The translations under genes and the position numbers were made by a program. A stretch of DNA of 64,000 nt from Quatrionicoccus australiensis (GTDB lineage: Bacteria > Pseudomonadota > Gammaproteobacteria > Burkholderiales > Rhodocyclaceae), in contig NZ_CP075188.1 of NCBI RefSeq assembly GCF_020510525.1, forward strand, positions 3,410,001 through 3,474,000, given 5' to 3'. How positions within the stretch are numbered: the first letter of the stretch is position 1; every line of letters starts with the position of its first letter. Below the pieces are notes generated by a model. The model was not told where the DNA came from and did not search any database. It worked only from the letters and a program-made list of their open reading frames with translations. Below are positions 38,325 through 44,620 of the stretch, in pieces.

Positions 38325-38338
38325 TGCGGATTTCCGCA
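38325..38338 (+). promoter_or_regulatory. Candidate upstream enhancer palindrome
   Basis: A perfect 14-base palindrome TGCGGATTTCCGCA lies about 80-90 bases upstream of the sigma-54 promoter's -24 element. A second half-site, TTCCGCA at 38301-38307, is repeated 31 bases upstream of the TTCCGCA in the palindrome, about three helical turns. This is where the bacterial enhancer-binding regulator encoded at 43286-44620 would bind. Confidence 0.55.
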
Positions 38339-38414
38339 CAGCAGCCCCGCCGGTCGACTGCAAAAAACAGGCAAAAACCAATTAAATCAGACAGCTGAAT
38401 CAGCCGGCCCGGGA

Positions 38415-38430
38415 TGGCACGCCTCCTGCA
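38415..38430 (+). promoter_or_regulatory. Sigma-54 (-24/-12) promoter of the ABC transporter operon
   Basis: TGGCACG at 38415-38421, four bases, then CTGCA at 38426-38430 matches the consensus TGGCACG-N4-TTGCA with one mismatch. The GG (38416-38417) and GC (38428-38429) are ten bases apart, as required. Transcription should start near 38441, giving a leader of about 46 bases to ATG 38487. Confidence 0.78.
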
Positions 38431-38486
38431 ATCTGTTTCTCGCCGCCGCTCTGCGGACGTCGTAAAAAACACTCAAGGAGATATTC

Positions 38487-41089: not shown

Positions 41090-41120
41090 GAAAAACGGGC
41101 AAAATCGGTAGGATGTCGGG

Positions 41121-42950
41121 GTGACCCTCGATCCTTCCCCCACCGCCGGCCGCAAGCGCCGCGCCCTGCTTCTGCTCGGTGCGGCGGTTGGCTTCTGCCT
41201 GCTCCTCGGCTGGCTGGCCTACCGCCTGTTTTTCGGCATCTACCTGGGCAACGACCGGCAACTGTCGGCACAGCGCCTCGATGCCTTCGCGCTGTCCCTC
41301 GAAGCGACGCTGGCCCGCCACGAATCGCTGCCCGGCCTGCTCGCCCTCGACCCGTCGCTCGCCGCATTGCTGCGCGAACCGCGCAACCCGCAACGCATCG
41401 CTGCCGCCAATGCCTATCTCGAAGCCGCGCAGCAGGGCGCCGCGGTCAGCGTCACCTTCCTGATCGATGCCCACGGCGAGACGCTGGCGGCCAGCAACTG
41501 GCAGTTGCCGCGCAGTTTCGTCGGCCACAACTACGCTTTCCGCCCCTATTTCCGCGATGCGCTGCAGGACGGCCTCGGCCGTTTCTACGGTGTCGGCGTC
41601 ACCACCGGCGAGCCCGGCTATTTCCTCGCCGCGCCGGTACGCGCAGCCGGCAAGGTGCTCGGCGTGATCGTTCTCAAGCTCTCGCTCGACAGCATGGAAC
41701 AGGCCCTGGCCGGTGCCGGCGACACCCTGCTGCTGGCCGACGCCGACGGCGTCGTCTTCCTGTCCTCGGAGCGCCGCCTGCGCTACCGCACGCTGGCGCC
41801 GCTGCCCGAGGCAGTCAGCGCGCGTCTTGCCGAAACCCGCCAGTACGGCACGCAGCCGGTCACGCCGCTCGCGGCGCAGGCTATTTTGCCCGCTGCAAAC
41901 GGTCAACCGCTACGCCTCGCCCTGCCCGGCGAAGTGGCGCGCGAACGCCTGATCCACAGCCGCCCGGTCGGCGGCCAGGGCTGGCAGGTCGTGCAACTCG
42001 GCGACCCCGGCGAGGCCCGTGCCGCCGCACTTGGCGCGGCCAGCGCCGTGGTTTTTGCCGCCGCCTTCCTGCTCGGCCTGGCCGCCCACTTCCGCCATCG
42101 TGCCCGCCGCCGCGAGGAATTGCGCCGCGTCTATGGCGAACTCGAGGAGCGCATCGCCGAACGCACCGCCGACCTGACCGAGCAGATCGCCGCCCTCGAA
42201 AGCACCAAGGCCATCCTGCGTGAAACGCGCGACGCCGCCGTGCAGGCCGGCAAGCTCGCGACGCTGGGCCAGATGTCGGCCGGCATCAGCCACGAGCTGA
42301 ACCAGCCGCTCGCTGCGCTGCAAACCCTGGCCGACAATGCGCGCGCCCTGCTCGCCCGCGGCCGCCATGATGAAGTCGGCGAAAACCTGCAGCTGATCAG
42401 CGAGCTGGTCGACCGCACCGGGCGCATCGTGCGCCAGTTGAAAAGCTTCGCCCGCAAGGAGGCGGCGACGCCGCAGGCGGTCACCGTGGCCAGCGCGATC
42501 GAGCACGCCCTGCTCATCGTCGAGCCGCGCCGGCGAGAAATCGGCGCCCGCATCGAGGTCGCGCCGCCGGCTGCCGACCTGCTGGCGCTGGCCGAAGCCG
42601 GCCGCCTCGAACAGGTGCTGGTCAATCTGCTGCGCAACGGCCTCGACGCCATGGCCGGCCAGCCCGAACCGGTGCTCGAGGTTTGCGCCAAGCGTGTCGA
42701 TGAGCGCATCTGCATCCATGTCCGCGACCATGGCGCCGGCCTGGCCGACGAAGTGCGCACTCACCTTTTCGAACCTTTCTACACCACCAAGCCGGCCGGC
42801 GAAGGCCTCGGTCTCGGCCTGGCCATTTCACTGACCATCGTCGAAAGTTACGGCGGCACGCTGGGCGCGCACAATGCGCCGGATGGCGGCGCCGTGTTCG
42901 TTCTGACGCTGCCCGCCGCAGGAGAACCCGATGCCCCATCTGACCCTTGA
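41121..42950 (+). CDS. DctB-like sensor histidine kinase
   Basis: This 609-residue kinase starts at GTG 41121. It has two membrane segments (about 15-37 and 297-320) around a large periplasmic double-CACHE-like sensor (RPYFRDALQDGLGRFYGVGVTTGEPGYFLAAPV), a cytoplasmic coiled coil (AERTADLTEQIAALE), HisKA with H391 (MSAGISHELNQPLAALQT) and HATPase (NLLRNGLDAM, GEGLGLGLAIS). This is the layout of DctB. Its partner is the sigma-54 regulator 336 bases on; the transporter just upstream is the likely target. It overlaps the isomerase gene by 20 bases. Confidence 0.92.
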   Translation: MTLDPSPTAGRKRRALLLLGAAVGFCLLLGWLAYRLFFGIYLGNDRQLSAQRLDAFALSLEATLARHESLPGLLALDPSLAALLREPRNPQRIAAANAYLEAAQQGAAVSVTFLIDAHGETLAASNWQLPRSFVGHNYAFRPYFRDALQDGLGRFYGVGVTTGEPGYFLAAPVRAAGKVLGVIVLKLSLDSMEQALAGAGDTLLLADADGVVFLSSERRLRYRTLAPLPEAVSARLAETRQYGTQPVTPLAAQAILPAANGQPLRLALPGEVARERLIHSRPVGGQGWQVVQLGDPGEARAAALGAASAVVFAAAFLLGLAAHFRHRARRREELRRVYGELEERIAERTADLTEQIAALESTKAILRETRDAAVQAGKLATLGQMSAGISHELNQPLAALQTLADNARALLARGRHDEVGENLQLISELVDRTGRIVRQLKSFARKEAATPQAVTVASAIEHALLIVEPRRREIGARIEVAPPAADLLALAEAGRLEQVLVNLLRNGLDAMAGQPEPVLEVCAKRVDERICIHVRDHGAGLADEVRTHLFEPFYTTKPAGEGLGLGLAISLTIVESYGGTLGAHNAPDGGAVFVLTLPAAGEPDAPSDP

Positions 42951-43293
42951 ATACAGCACCAATCTCGCCAGTTTTTCGCCGGCGCGCGCCCTCGCCGCAC
43001 TGAATACGGCGATGTTCGATTCCGGCCTGTTCAGCGAACCCGACATCAAGAGCCGGGCGCTCGCCCTCGAGCATTTCCAGGTCGGCATCCGGCCGGCGCC
43101 GCGCGCCTTCGCACATGTCCGCATCGCGCTGCTCGCCGGGCGCAGCGACGCCGAACGCAAGGAACTGGCCGAAGCCGTGCTCGCCGCACTGCGCTCAGCG
43201 GTCGACGCATCCACGGAAGCAGAAATCCAGCTCAGCGTCGAGACCGTCGATCTCGACCGCGGCAGCTACGCCAAGGCCGTGCTCAATGGCTGA
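42931..43293 (+). CDS. 5-carboxymethyl-2-hydroxymuconate delta-isomerase family protein
   Basis: A 120-residue tautomerase-superfamily protein of the CHMI type. The catalytic proline is second (MPHLTLEYS, so Pro1 after Met removal). The family ends with AEIQLSVETVDLDRGSYAK. CHMI acts in homoprotocatechuate degradation, but no other gene of that pathway is here. The AGGAGAA ribosome site lies inside the kinase gene; the stop overlaps the regulator start by eight bases. It may act on an aromatic-derived ligand of the transporter or be a diverged protein; both are guesses. Confidence 0.85.
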   Translation: MPHLTLEYSTNLASFSPARALAALNTAMFDSGLFSEPDIKSRALALEHFQVGIRPAPRAFAHVRIALLAGRSDAERKELAEAVLAALRSAVDASTEAEIQLSVETVDLDRGSYAKAVLNG

Positions 43294-44620
43294 CTTCCCG
43301 GTTTTCCTGGTTGAGGACGACGCGGCCGTGCGCAAGGGCTGCGAACAGGCGCTCTCCATCGCCGACATCCCGGTGCGCGCCTTTGCCGATGCCGAGAAAT
43401 TGCTCGCCGCACTGGCCACGGCAACGCCGGCCCTGGTCGTCAGCGACGTCCGCCTGCCCGGCCGCGACGGCCTCACCCTGCTGCGTGAACTGCGCCAACA
43501 TGACCGCGAGCTGCCGGTGCTGCTGATGACCGGGCATGGCGACGTGGCCATGGCGGTCGAGGCGATGCGCGAAGGCGCCTACGACTTCATCGAGAAACCT
43601 TTCCCGTCCGAGCGCCTGGTCGCCGCGGTCAGGAGCGCCCTGGAAAAGCGCGCCCTGCTGCGCGAGAATCGCCAGCTCAAGGAACGCCTGGGCAGCGGCA
43701 GCCAGATCATCGGCCAGTCGCCGGCGATGCAGCAGGTGCGCCAGTTGGTCGGCACGCTCGCCCCGACCGGCGTCGACATCCTGATCAACGGCGAAACCGG
43801 CTGCGGCAAGGAAGTCGTCGCACGCGCCATCCACGATGCCAGCGGCCGGCGCGGCCCCTTCGTCGCGATCAACTGCGGCGCGCTGCCGGAAACGGTGTTC
43901 GAGAGCGAACTCTTCGGCCACGAGGCGGGCGCCTTCACCGGCGCCGGCAAGCGCCGCATCGGCCGCATCGAGCACGCCAACGGCGGCACGCTGTTCCTCG
44001 ACGAAATCGAGTCGATGCCGCTCAACCTGCAGGTCAAGCTGCTGCGCGTGCTGCAGGAACGCAGCGTCGAGCGCCTGGGCAGCAACACCGCGATCCCGGT
44101 CGATTGCCGCCTGGTCGCGGCGAGCAAAACCGACCTGAAAACGGCGTCGACCGCTGGCCAGTTCCGCGCCGACCTGTATTACCGCCTGAACGTGGTCAGC
44201 ATCGACCTGCCGCCGCTGCGCCAGCGCCGCGAGGATATCGCGCTGCTCATGGCGCAGTTCCTGCAGGATGCCGCGACGCGCTACCAGCGCCCGGCCGCGG
44301 CGATGACGCCAGCCGACCTGGCGCGCTGGACGGCGCACGACTGGCCGGGCAATGTGCGCGAACTGAAGAATGTCGCCGATCGCTGGGCGCTCGGTCTGCC
44401 CGATGGTCTGGCGCAGCCGGCCAGTGCGACACAGCCCGGCGGTTCGCTCGCCGAGCAGGTCGATGCCGCCGAAAAGGCCGCCATCGAGAAGGCCCTGCAG
44501 GCGGCTGACGGCAATGTCGCGCGCGCCGCCGAGGCGCTGCAATTGCCGAAGAAAACCCTGTACGACAAGTTGACGCGGCACGCCCTCGTCGCCGAGGATT
44601 TCCGCCGCCAGGCTCAGTAA
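43286..44620 (+). CDS. Sigma-54-dependent response regulator, DctD type
   Basis: This 444-residue regulator has a receiver with D54 (VVSDVRLPGRDG), a central AAA+ domain with Walker A (INGETGCGKE), the GAFTGA loop intact (HEAGAFTGAGK), Walker B (GGTLFLDEIESM) and the usual DWPGNVRELKNVADRW end, then a Fis-type helix-turn-helix (ALQAADGNVARAAEALQLPKKTLYDKL). An intact GAFTGA means it can open sigma-54 promoters. ATG 43286 lies in the isomerase gene; the longer open frame to 43115 is shadow. It probably activates the promoter at 38415-38430. Confidence 0.95.
   Translation: MADFPVFLVEDDAAVRKGCEQALSIADIPVRAFADAEKLLAALATATPALVVSDVRLPGRDGLTLLRELRQHDRELPVLLMTGHGDVAMAVEAMREGAYDFIEKPFPSERLVAAVRSALEKRALLRENRQLKERLGSGSQIIGQSPAMQQVRQLVGTLAPTGVDILINGETGCGKEVVARAIHDASGRRGPFVAINCGALPETVFESELFGHEAGAFTGAGKRRIGRIEHANGGTLFLDEIESMPLNLQVKLLRVLQERSVERLGSNTAIPVDCRLVAASKTDLKTASTAGQFRADLYYRLNVVSIDLPPLRQRREDIALLMAQFLQDAATRYQRPAAAMTPADLARWTAHDWPGNVRELKNVADRWALGLPDGLAQPASATQPGGSLAEQVDAAEKAAIEKALQAADGNVARAAEALQLPKKTLYDKLTRHALVAEDFRRQAQ

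Follow-up and report, generated by a model that had tools for sequence, protein, structure and literature searches.

A predicted sigma-54 circuit with paired operator sites around a TauT-class ABC importer, tentatively for glutarate, in Quatrionicoccus australiensis

In a 64,000-nucleotide stretch of Quatrionicoccus australiensis DNA (contig NZ_CP075188.1, positions 3,410,001 to 3,474,000 of the forward strand; hereafter the window), six plus-strand genes at 38487-44620 encode a substrate-binding protein (SBP), a permease, an ATPase, a DctB-like kinase, a CHMI-like protein and a GAFTGA-bearing regulator. Very probably this cluster is a self-contained sigma-54 circuit, because its promoter recurs at every related locus that has a linked kinase and regulator and is absent from most loci without them, and because paired operator-like sites recur upstream. 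That such a circuit also answers to a short dicarboxylate is probable. Our reading of the whole, which we hold tentatively, is that a dedicated TauT/NMT1-class ABC importer for glutarate has a DctB/DctD-type sigma-54 pair of its own, which senses glutarate and controls the importer from two operators separated by three helical turns; the regulated module would be present in Beta- and Alphaproteobacteria, and the importer part, with no adjoining regulator, in Acidobacteriota and Geobacteraceae as well.

An earlier note on this DNA had described a near-consensus -24/-12 promoter, a perfect 14-base palindrome upstream of it and a repeated half-site three helical turns away. The promoter was confirmed, with exact GG-N10-GC spacing (Table 1); no other exact match to TGGCACGNNNNYTGCA exists in the window, and the 4.17-Mb genome holds five in all (one for a reversed-pattern control). 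The palindrome is likewise real, and the main operator copy is the sole exact match to TGCGGANNTCCGCA in the genome, but it falls short of perfect: its arms, TGCGGA and TCCGCA, flank a central TT (6+2+6), so that 12 of the 14 positions are symmetric. The distance to the half-site also held, at 31 bp, but the half-site itself turned out to be the 3' half of a second, degenerate operator copy (CGCGAGATTCCGCA) that agrees with the main copy at 10 of 14 letters (counted by eye). If transcription is assumed to start near 38441, the operator centres lie near -110 and -141. When up to two mismatches are allowed, neither the promoter motif nor the operator motif is commoner in the window than in shuffles; only exact matches and their conservation in relatives carry weight, not loose window matches.

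Loci for comparison came from an SBP scan of species genomes, whose 112 relatives were cut to the best 80, and from 300 genomes sampled evenly across the order, 27 of which, including the window's own, carry the SBP. This gave 106 loci (the 80 plus 26 more), or 102 once four with an SBP identical to another were dropped; a further 10 loci with short downstream sequence and one with short upstream sequence were left out of the promoter-linkage table. All 51 loci at which kinase and regulator are linked have the promoter; of the 40 others, 35 do not (Fisher P = 3.6e-20, uncorrected). Grouping at 85% SBP identity gave 26 clusters, among which 10 were linked with the promoter, none linked without it, 3 unlinked with it and 13 unlinked without it (P = 1.1e-4); coarser clustering gave P = 1.2e-4 at 80% (19 clusters) and 0.03 at 75% (7 clusters). 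Locus L020 counts as promoterless in the linkage table, where its -12 element is broken, and as promoter-bearing in the cluster table, where the score alone was used. Locus L023 was omitted from the cluster table; its promoter match is an artefact, with the contig cut within the SBP gene. The promoter calls at L026 and L063 are weak and probably due to chance.

Orthologous regulators are encoded elsewhere in the genome for two of the five promoter-bearing unlinked loci (Noviherbaspirillum L067, and L133 in genome G219). In the regulator tree, the one for L067 (L155) groups with Massilia regulators and the one for L133 (L152) with the linked regulators L127 and L131. Fourteen genomes entered the regulator search, and 13 of these showed no promoter in the sequence covered (about 114 upstream bases only in G030, and a scan only at a score of at least 14.4 in G926). 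No family regulator was found at E <= 1e-110 in 12 of these 13 genomes, which have the SBP but no linked pair or detected promoter; the one with a match is G178 (59% identity). G356, which has the promoter and paired sites, gave four regulator matches. The pairs downstream of L130, L140 and L141 were rejected as orthologues of this kinase and regulator: the L141 pair is PilS-PilR-like by Pfam, and the three regulators form one far-off clade.

The motif GGANNTCC alone occurs at 20 of 60 loci against 2.06 expected, yet also at 5 of 38 promoterless loci, and we therefore used a paired-site score instead of a single-motif count. This analysis covered 58 promoter-bearing loci, with L020, L023, L063 and loci with too little upstream sequence left out. 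The best operator-like 14-mer pair was spaced 31 or 32 bp in 43 of the 58 (46 for a spacing of 29-32 bp); the 31-32 bp spacing turned up in 4.7% of the 580 shuffles and at 3 of the 38 promoterless loci. Of the promoter-bearing loci, 36 reached a pair score of at least 19 of 24, a level that no shuffle and no promoterless locus attained. After clustering at 85%, 8 of 11 clusters had the 31-32 bp pair in at least half their loci. Furthermore, the two sites shift as a unit relative to the promoter (e.g., -109/-78, -121/-90, -129/-97), which fits the expectation for a looping enhancer. Among Alphaproteobacteria, a 32-bp pair is retained in two Azospirillum plasmid copies and in G356. The earlier note had named absence of the promoter and palindrome from orthologous operons as the observation that would speak against the circuit; instead, every linked operon has the promoter and most have paired sites. 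From these comparisons we conclude that the predicted coupling of promoter and kinase-regulator circuit exceeds chance, and they support the earlier suggestion that the kinase and regulator lie in the operon they probably control.

We propose that the dCache domain of the kinase would meet the dicarboxylate in the periplasm, either directly or as the loaded SBP, and that the kinase would then autophosphorylate and pass the phosphate to Asp54 of the regulator. The regulator would bind the two 14-bp sites near -110 and -141 and loop the DNA, and its GAFTGA motif would open sigma-54 polymerase at 38415-38430. Importer, kinase and regulator would thus rise together in a positive loop. Regulator binding, activation, sigma-54 dependence and positive feedback are predicted here from sequence, and the feedback would need basal kinase and regulator, from read-through or from weak promoters not seen here.

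Table 1 Predicted features of the importer operon and its control region (window coordinates)
Feature	Position	Strand	Basis or remarks
Second, degenerate activator-site copy CGCGAGATTCCGCA	38294..38307	.	exactly 31 bp upstream of main copy
Main activator-site copy TGCGGA-TT-TCCGCA	38325..38338	.	similar or same 14-mer upstream of many orthologous operons
Sigma-54 -24/-12 promoter TGGCACGCCTCCTGCA (TGGCACG-CCTC-CTGCA)	38415..38430	+	exact GG-N10-GC; predicted transcription start ~38441
Periplasmic substrate-binding protein (SBP), NMT1/SsuA fold	38487..39473	+	PF13379, PF09084
ABC permease	39484..40296	+	PF00528; under TauC/SsuC/SaoP cutoffs
ABC ATPase	40298..41089	+	PF00005; under SaoA and taurine-ATPase cutoffs
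DctB-like sensor histidine kinase, 609 aa, GTG start	41121..42950	+	dCache, HisKA, HATPase_c
CHMI-like protein (tautomerase-type isomerase)	42931..43293	+	PF02962
DctD-like sigma-54 activator response regulator, 444 aa	43286..44620	+	PF00072, PF00158, PF02954

The layout of the operon suggests that its six genes are transcribed as one unit. The first four are separated by gaps of 10, 1 and 31 bp; the CHMI-like gene begins 20 bp inside the end of the kinase gene, and the regulator gene 8 bp inside the end of the CHMI-like gene. A scan of 38150-44900 turned up no sigma-70-like promoter (0.6 expected in shuffles). Plus-strand terminator-like sites all lie within coding sequence, and the eight sites in total, vs 5.2 in shuffles, are no clear excess. 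Domain matches bore out the earlier description of a DctB-like kinase and a GAFTGA-bearing DctD-like regulator running in the same direction as the importer. The regulator is complete, with Asp54, Walker A at 169 and GAFTGA at 215 in a receiver-AAA+-Fis-type helix-turn-helix (HTH) arrangement; the ATG at 43286 is its best start, better than the start of the longer open reading frame at 43115. The genome has a single copy of rpoN.

The periplasmic part of the kinase (residues 51-271) is closest to DctB structures (3by9, E 3.5e-36; 2zbb, E 3.2e-35). At the positions of R152 and K197 in Sinorhizobium meliloti DctB, which we take to be residues that clamp carboxylates, Arg and Lys are conserved in 58 of 58 aligned rows (two of which are DctB itself, and some paralogues). 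The position aligned with DctB T171 varies, with Val in the window's kinase and Thr in 11 of the 58 rows. DctB, AauS and MifS have been grouped together as one carboxylate-sensing dCache group (PMC8694187).

Genes that neighbour the importer in relatives bear on its ligand. Janthinobacterium fluminis (L038) and two Massilia species (L057, L059) have the order SBP-permease-ATPase-gcdH-CoA transferase-kinase-regulator. The first inserted enzyme of L038 scores 747 bits to a solved glutaryl-CoA dehydrogenase (GcdH), and the best model for the second is succinate-glutarate CoA-transferase (512.7 bits, below the cutoff of 750); L057 and L059 carry homologues of both in the same slot between ATPase and kinase. 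In Noviherbaspirillum, gcdH alone follows SBP-permease-ATPase (L067), and gcdH, transferase, kinase and regulator stand in a row elsewhere (L169). The ATPase-kinase slot holds DctA in three Pandoraea species (L036, L039, L041) and a DASS carrier in Dechloromonas hortensis (L013). The two Azospirillum plasmid copies, which have promoter and paired sites, are divergent from a gene for 3-hydroxybutyryl-CoA dehydrogenase, presumably a later step of the glutarate route. From the DctB-like sensor together with these neighbours we infer a dicarboxylate, most likely glutarate, although the assignment to glutarate itself is tentative. The aromatic acids or sulfonates put forward earlier as candidate ligands are unsupported, as the neighbouring genes of relatives point to dicarboxylates and the importer proteins score below the corresponding cutoffs.

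A structural model of the SBP (pLDDT 90) matched the SsuA structures 3ksx and 3ksj best in Foldseek, with TauA within the first ten. The SBP thus has the SsuA/TauA fold, and fold and Pfam matches together place the importer in the NitT/TauT class. At that level the earlier designation as an SsuABC/TauABC-type importer stands, and the SBP-permease-ATPase gene set is also the same. It does not extend to the families themselves, as all three proteins fall below the SsuA, TauA/B/C and Sao cutoffs, and no sulfur genes were seen among the nearby proteins that were scanned. The SBP reached 139.8 of 163.5 for SsuA_fam and 38 of 304.25 for the taurine model, and the importer reached 53.6 of 300, 198.8 of 295 and 268.4 of 360 for SaoXPA (NCBIfam). 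Solved relatives of the SBP fold bind sulfonates, nitrate, bicarbonate, thiamine precursors and others. We rejected the fold as a guide to the ligand, since the matches show the general SsuA/TauA fold only.

Several observations weigh against a glutarate circuit of this design. The window's operon itself lacks gcdH and the succinate-glutarate CoA-transferase gene, most linked operons have no catabolic gene, and the gcdH linkage, seen only in Oxalobacteraceae, may be a single event. The window's genome encodes a GcdH (72% identity) but no CoA-transferase above 35%, and its gcdH stretch has no sigma-54 site with paired operators. The region upstream of the L169 row lacks both an operator pair and any sigma-54 site above 13.4, and so gives no sign of self-control. 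Among the 300 genomes sampled from the order, those with the SBP do not clearly have the transferase more often (14 of 27) than those without the SBP (114 of 273), and none of the listed solved SBP folds binds a dicarboxylate by title. On the side of the operators, 15 of the 58 promoter-bearing loci lack the 31-32 bp pair, as do the linked alphaproteobacterial loci L167 and L170, which have the promoter.

The control region could in principle be a set of chance matches, with the kinase-regulator pair acting elsewhere. Loose matches in the window are indeed as frequent as in shuffles, but conservation, spacing and co-occurrence in relatives nearly refute this explanation, which we consider extremely improbable. 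An importer for sulfonates, taurine or aromatic acids would suit the Foldseek matches to SsuA and TauA and the CHMI-like gene, whose family we take to belong to an aromatic-acid pathway. This is very unlikely: SBP, permease and ATPase all score under the SsuA/TauA cutoffs, no sulfur or aromatic-pathway gene was found among the selected neighbour proteins scanned, and the CHMI-like gene is present in only 13 of the 51 linked operons, for which reason we dropped it as a clue to the ligand.

Two further alternatives keep the circuit and change what is sensed. The kinase might read the loaded SBP rather than the ligand itself, making the importer's SBP a co-sensor. This seems unlikely, as the presumed carboxylate-clamping residues of DctB are conserved in the kinase and the Noviherbaspirillum kinase-regulator pair is encoded away from the importer. 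In its favor, SBP-activated kinases are known, many of them encoded beside their SBP (PMC11113362), and such a role has been proposed for AatJ (PMC7386598). Alternatively, the same circuit might serve another dicarboxylate (C4, or a longer odd-chain one such as pimelate), with glutarate not the main substrate in the window's lineage. We regard this as possible but doubtful. The DctB-type sensor, the carriers between ATPase and kinase in Pandoraea (DctA) and D. hortensis (DASS), and the lack of a close transferase in the window's genome would fit it, as would the use of GcdH in C7 and C9 diacid breakdown and the pimelate ABC importers reported for Ralstonia and Cupriavidus (PMC12543098). What argues for glutarate over these is that the gcdH neighbour in L038, L057, L059 and L169 encodes a homologue of succinate-glutarate CoA-transferases. 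Val at the T171 position also hints against a plain C4 site, but only weakly, because Thr is kept in 11 of the 58 rows.

Among known systems, DctB-DctD of Rhizobium (for C4-dicarboxylates) has the same dCache kinase, the same receiver-AAA+-Fis sigma-54 activator and tandem operators upstream of a -24/-12 promoter, as at dctA. It differs from the circuit described here in that the latter would target not a DctA or TRAP carrier but an ABC importer from its own operon, and has a ligand that is probably C5. The gcdH-gcdG glutarate pathway, which in Pseudomonas putida is under GcdR/LysR control, is related through the homologues of its enzyme pair inside the operon in some Oxalobacteraceae. It differs in its control: of 12 further transferase loci elsewhere in the order (chosen from 128 transferase-bearing genomes, eight of them for having the SBP), nine have an adjoining GcdH gene but none has a sigma-54 site with paired operators, which suggests that the two enzymes form a separate unit that was drawn into the operon. 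The Pseudomonas system AauS-AauR/aatJQMP differs in its ligands, Asp and Glu, and in its SBP family; AatJ is an amino-acid-type SBP, and the AauR operator is TTCGG-N4-CCGAA (here TGCGGA-N2-TCCGCA). We know of no TauT-type ABC importer that accompanies MifS-MifR of P. aeruginosa. MifS-MifR has in common with the present system a DctB-like sensor tied to a C5 dicarboxylate, alpha-ketoglutarate (PMC8694187). Likewise, AauS-AauR consists of a DctB-like kinase and an activator that control the ABC importer they are encoded with (PMC7386598); the earlier statement that pairing a DctB/DctD-like system with an ABC importer is unusual was thus overstated.

The window's genome has a second DctB/DctD-like pair (kinase 42% identity), so the pair of the importer operon is not its only one. 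This paralogous operon (L160:6151-13007; genome 3701150-3708006) encodes aspartase, a DctA/GltP-like carrier, a hypothetical protein and the DctB/DctD-like pair. Its regulator falls in a separate supported clade, and the same scan found no sigma-54 site at a score of at least 14.4 in the L160 stretch.

According to a 2025 paper (PMC12622518), no microbial glutarate uptake carrier had been reported before KgtP in Escherichia coli, and ABC importers are reported for pimelate but not for glutarate in the parts covered of PMC12543098. A literature search, with most subscription papers outside it, found no description of this operon or of a glutarate ABC importer in the texts it covered. DctB-like control of an ABC importer was already known; the apparent novelty lies in the class of the importer, in its probable ligand and in the conserved operator pair. 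If our reading is correct, the importer would be a second glutarate uptake route besides KgtP, possibly of higher affinity; its kinase would be a candidate sensor of glutarate for the catabolism of lysine, plastic monomers and aromatics, and the system would offer a clean test case for ligand change in DctB-type sensors. The paired-operator footprint is a ready motif for a regulon search.

The isomerase that the earlier note had placed in the operon is present as the CHMI-like gene, but this gene is outside the operon core, being confined to the minority of linked operons given above and missing from all Oxalobacteraceae, Pandoraea and Chromobacterium versions. Its product passes the Pfam CHMI cutoff (61.8 vs 26.5) and fails the CHMI equivalog cutoff (29.9 of 215 bits), and Pro is the second residue in 17 of 17 rows (14 different sequences). 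Other genes, too, can be inserted into the operon. The permease and ATPase genes are separated by one for a Peripla_BP_6 binding protein in L012 (L012:10675-11919), a catalase-peroxidase gene stands between those for ATPase and kinase in L023 (L023:2742-5108), and L118 has a gene for a protein with an AraC-type HTH between kinase and regulator (L118:8182-8985), in the slot that CHMI occupies in others.

In two Geobacter-type metagenome-assembled genomes (L028, L029), the same importer has no regulator and is preceded on its strand by surE, pcm, rpoS-like and apt genes (named from L028; L029 has the same gene families), and it is apparently under other control. Convergent with the window's operon, 44614-45315 (minus strand) encodes a short protein that gives no more than a weak QueG-like match (E 0.00056), has no match in Pfam and is kept in L016. 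Beyond it, 46075-47798 (minus strand) holds two overlapping tandem genes of the 2-hydroxy-3-oxopropionate reductase / hydroxyisobutyrate dehydrogenase family, at least the first of which likewise lies downstream of the operon in L016.

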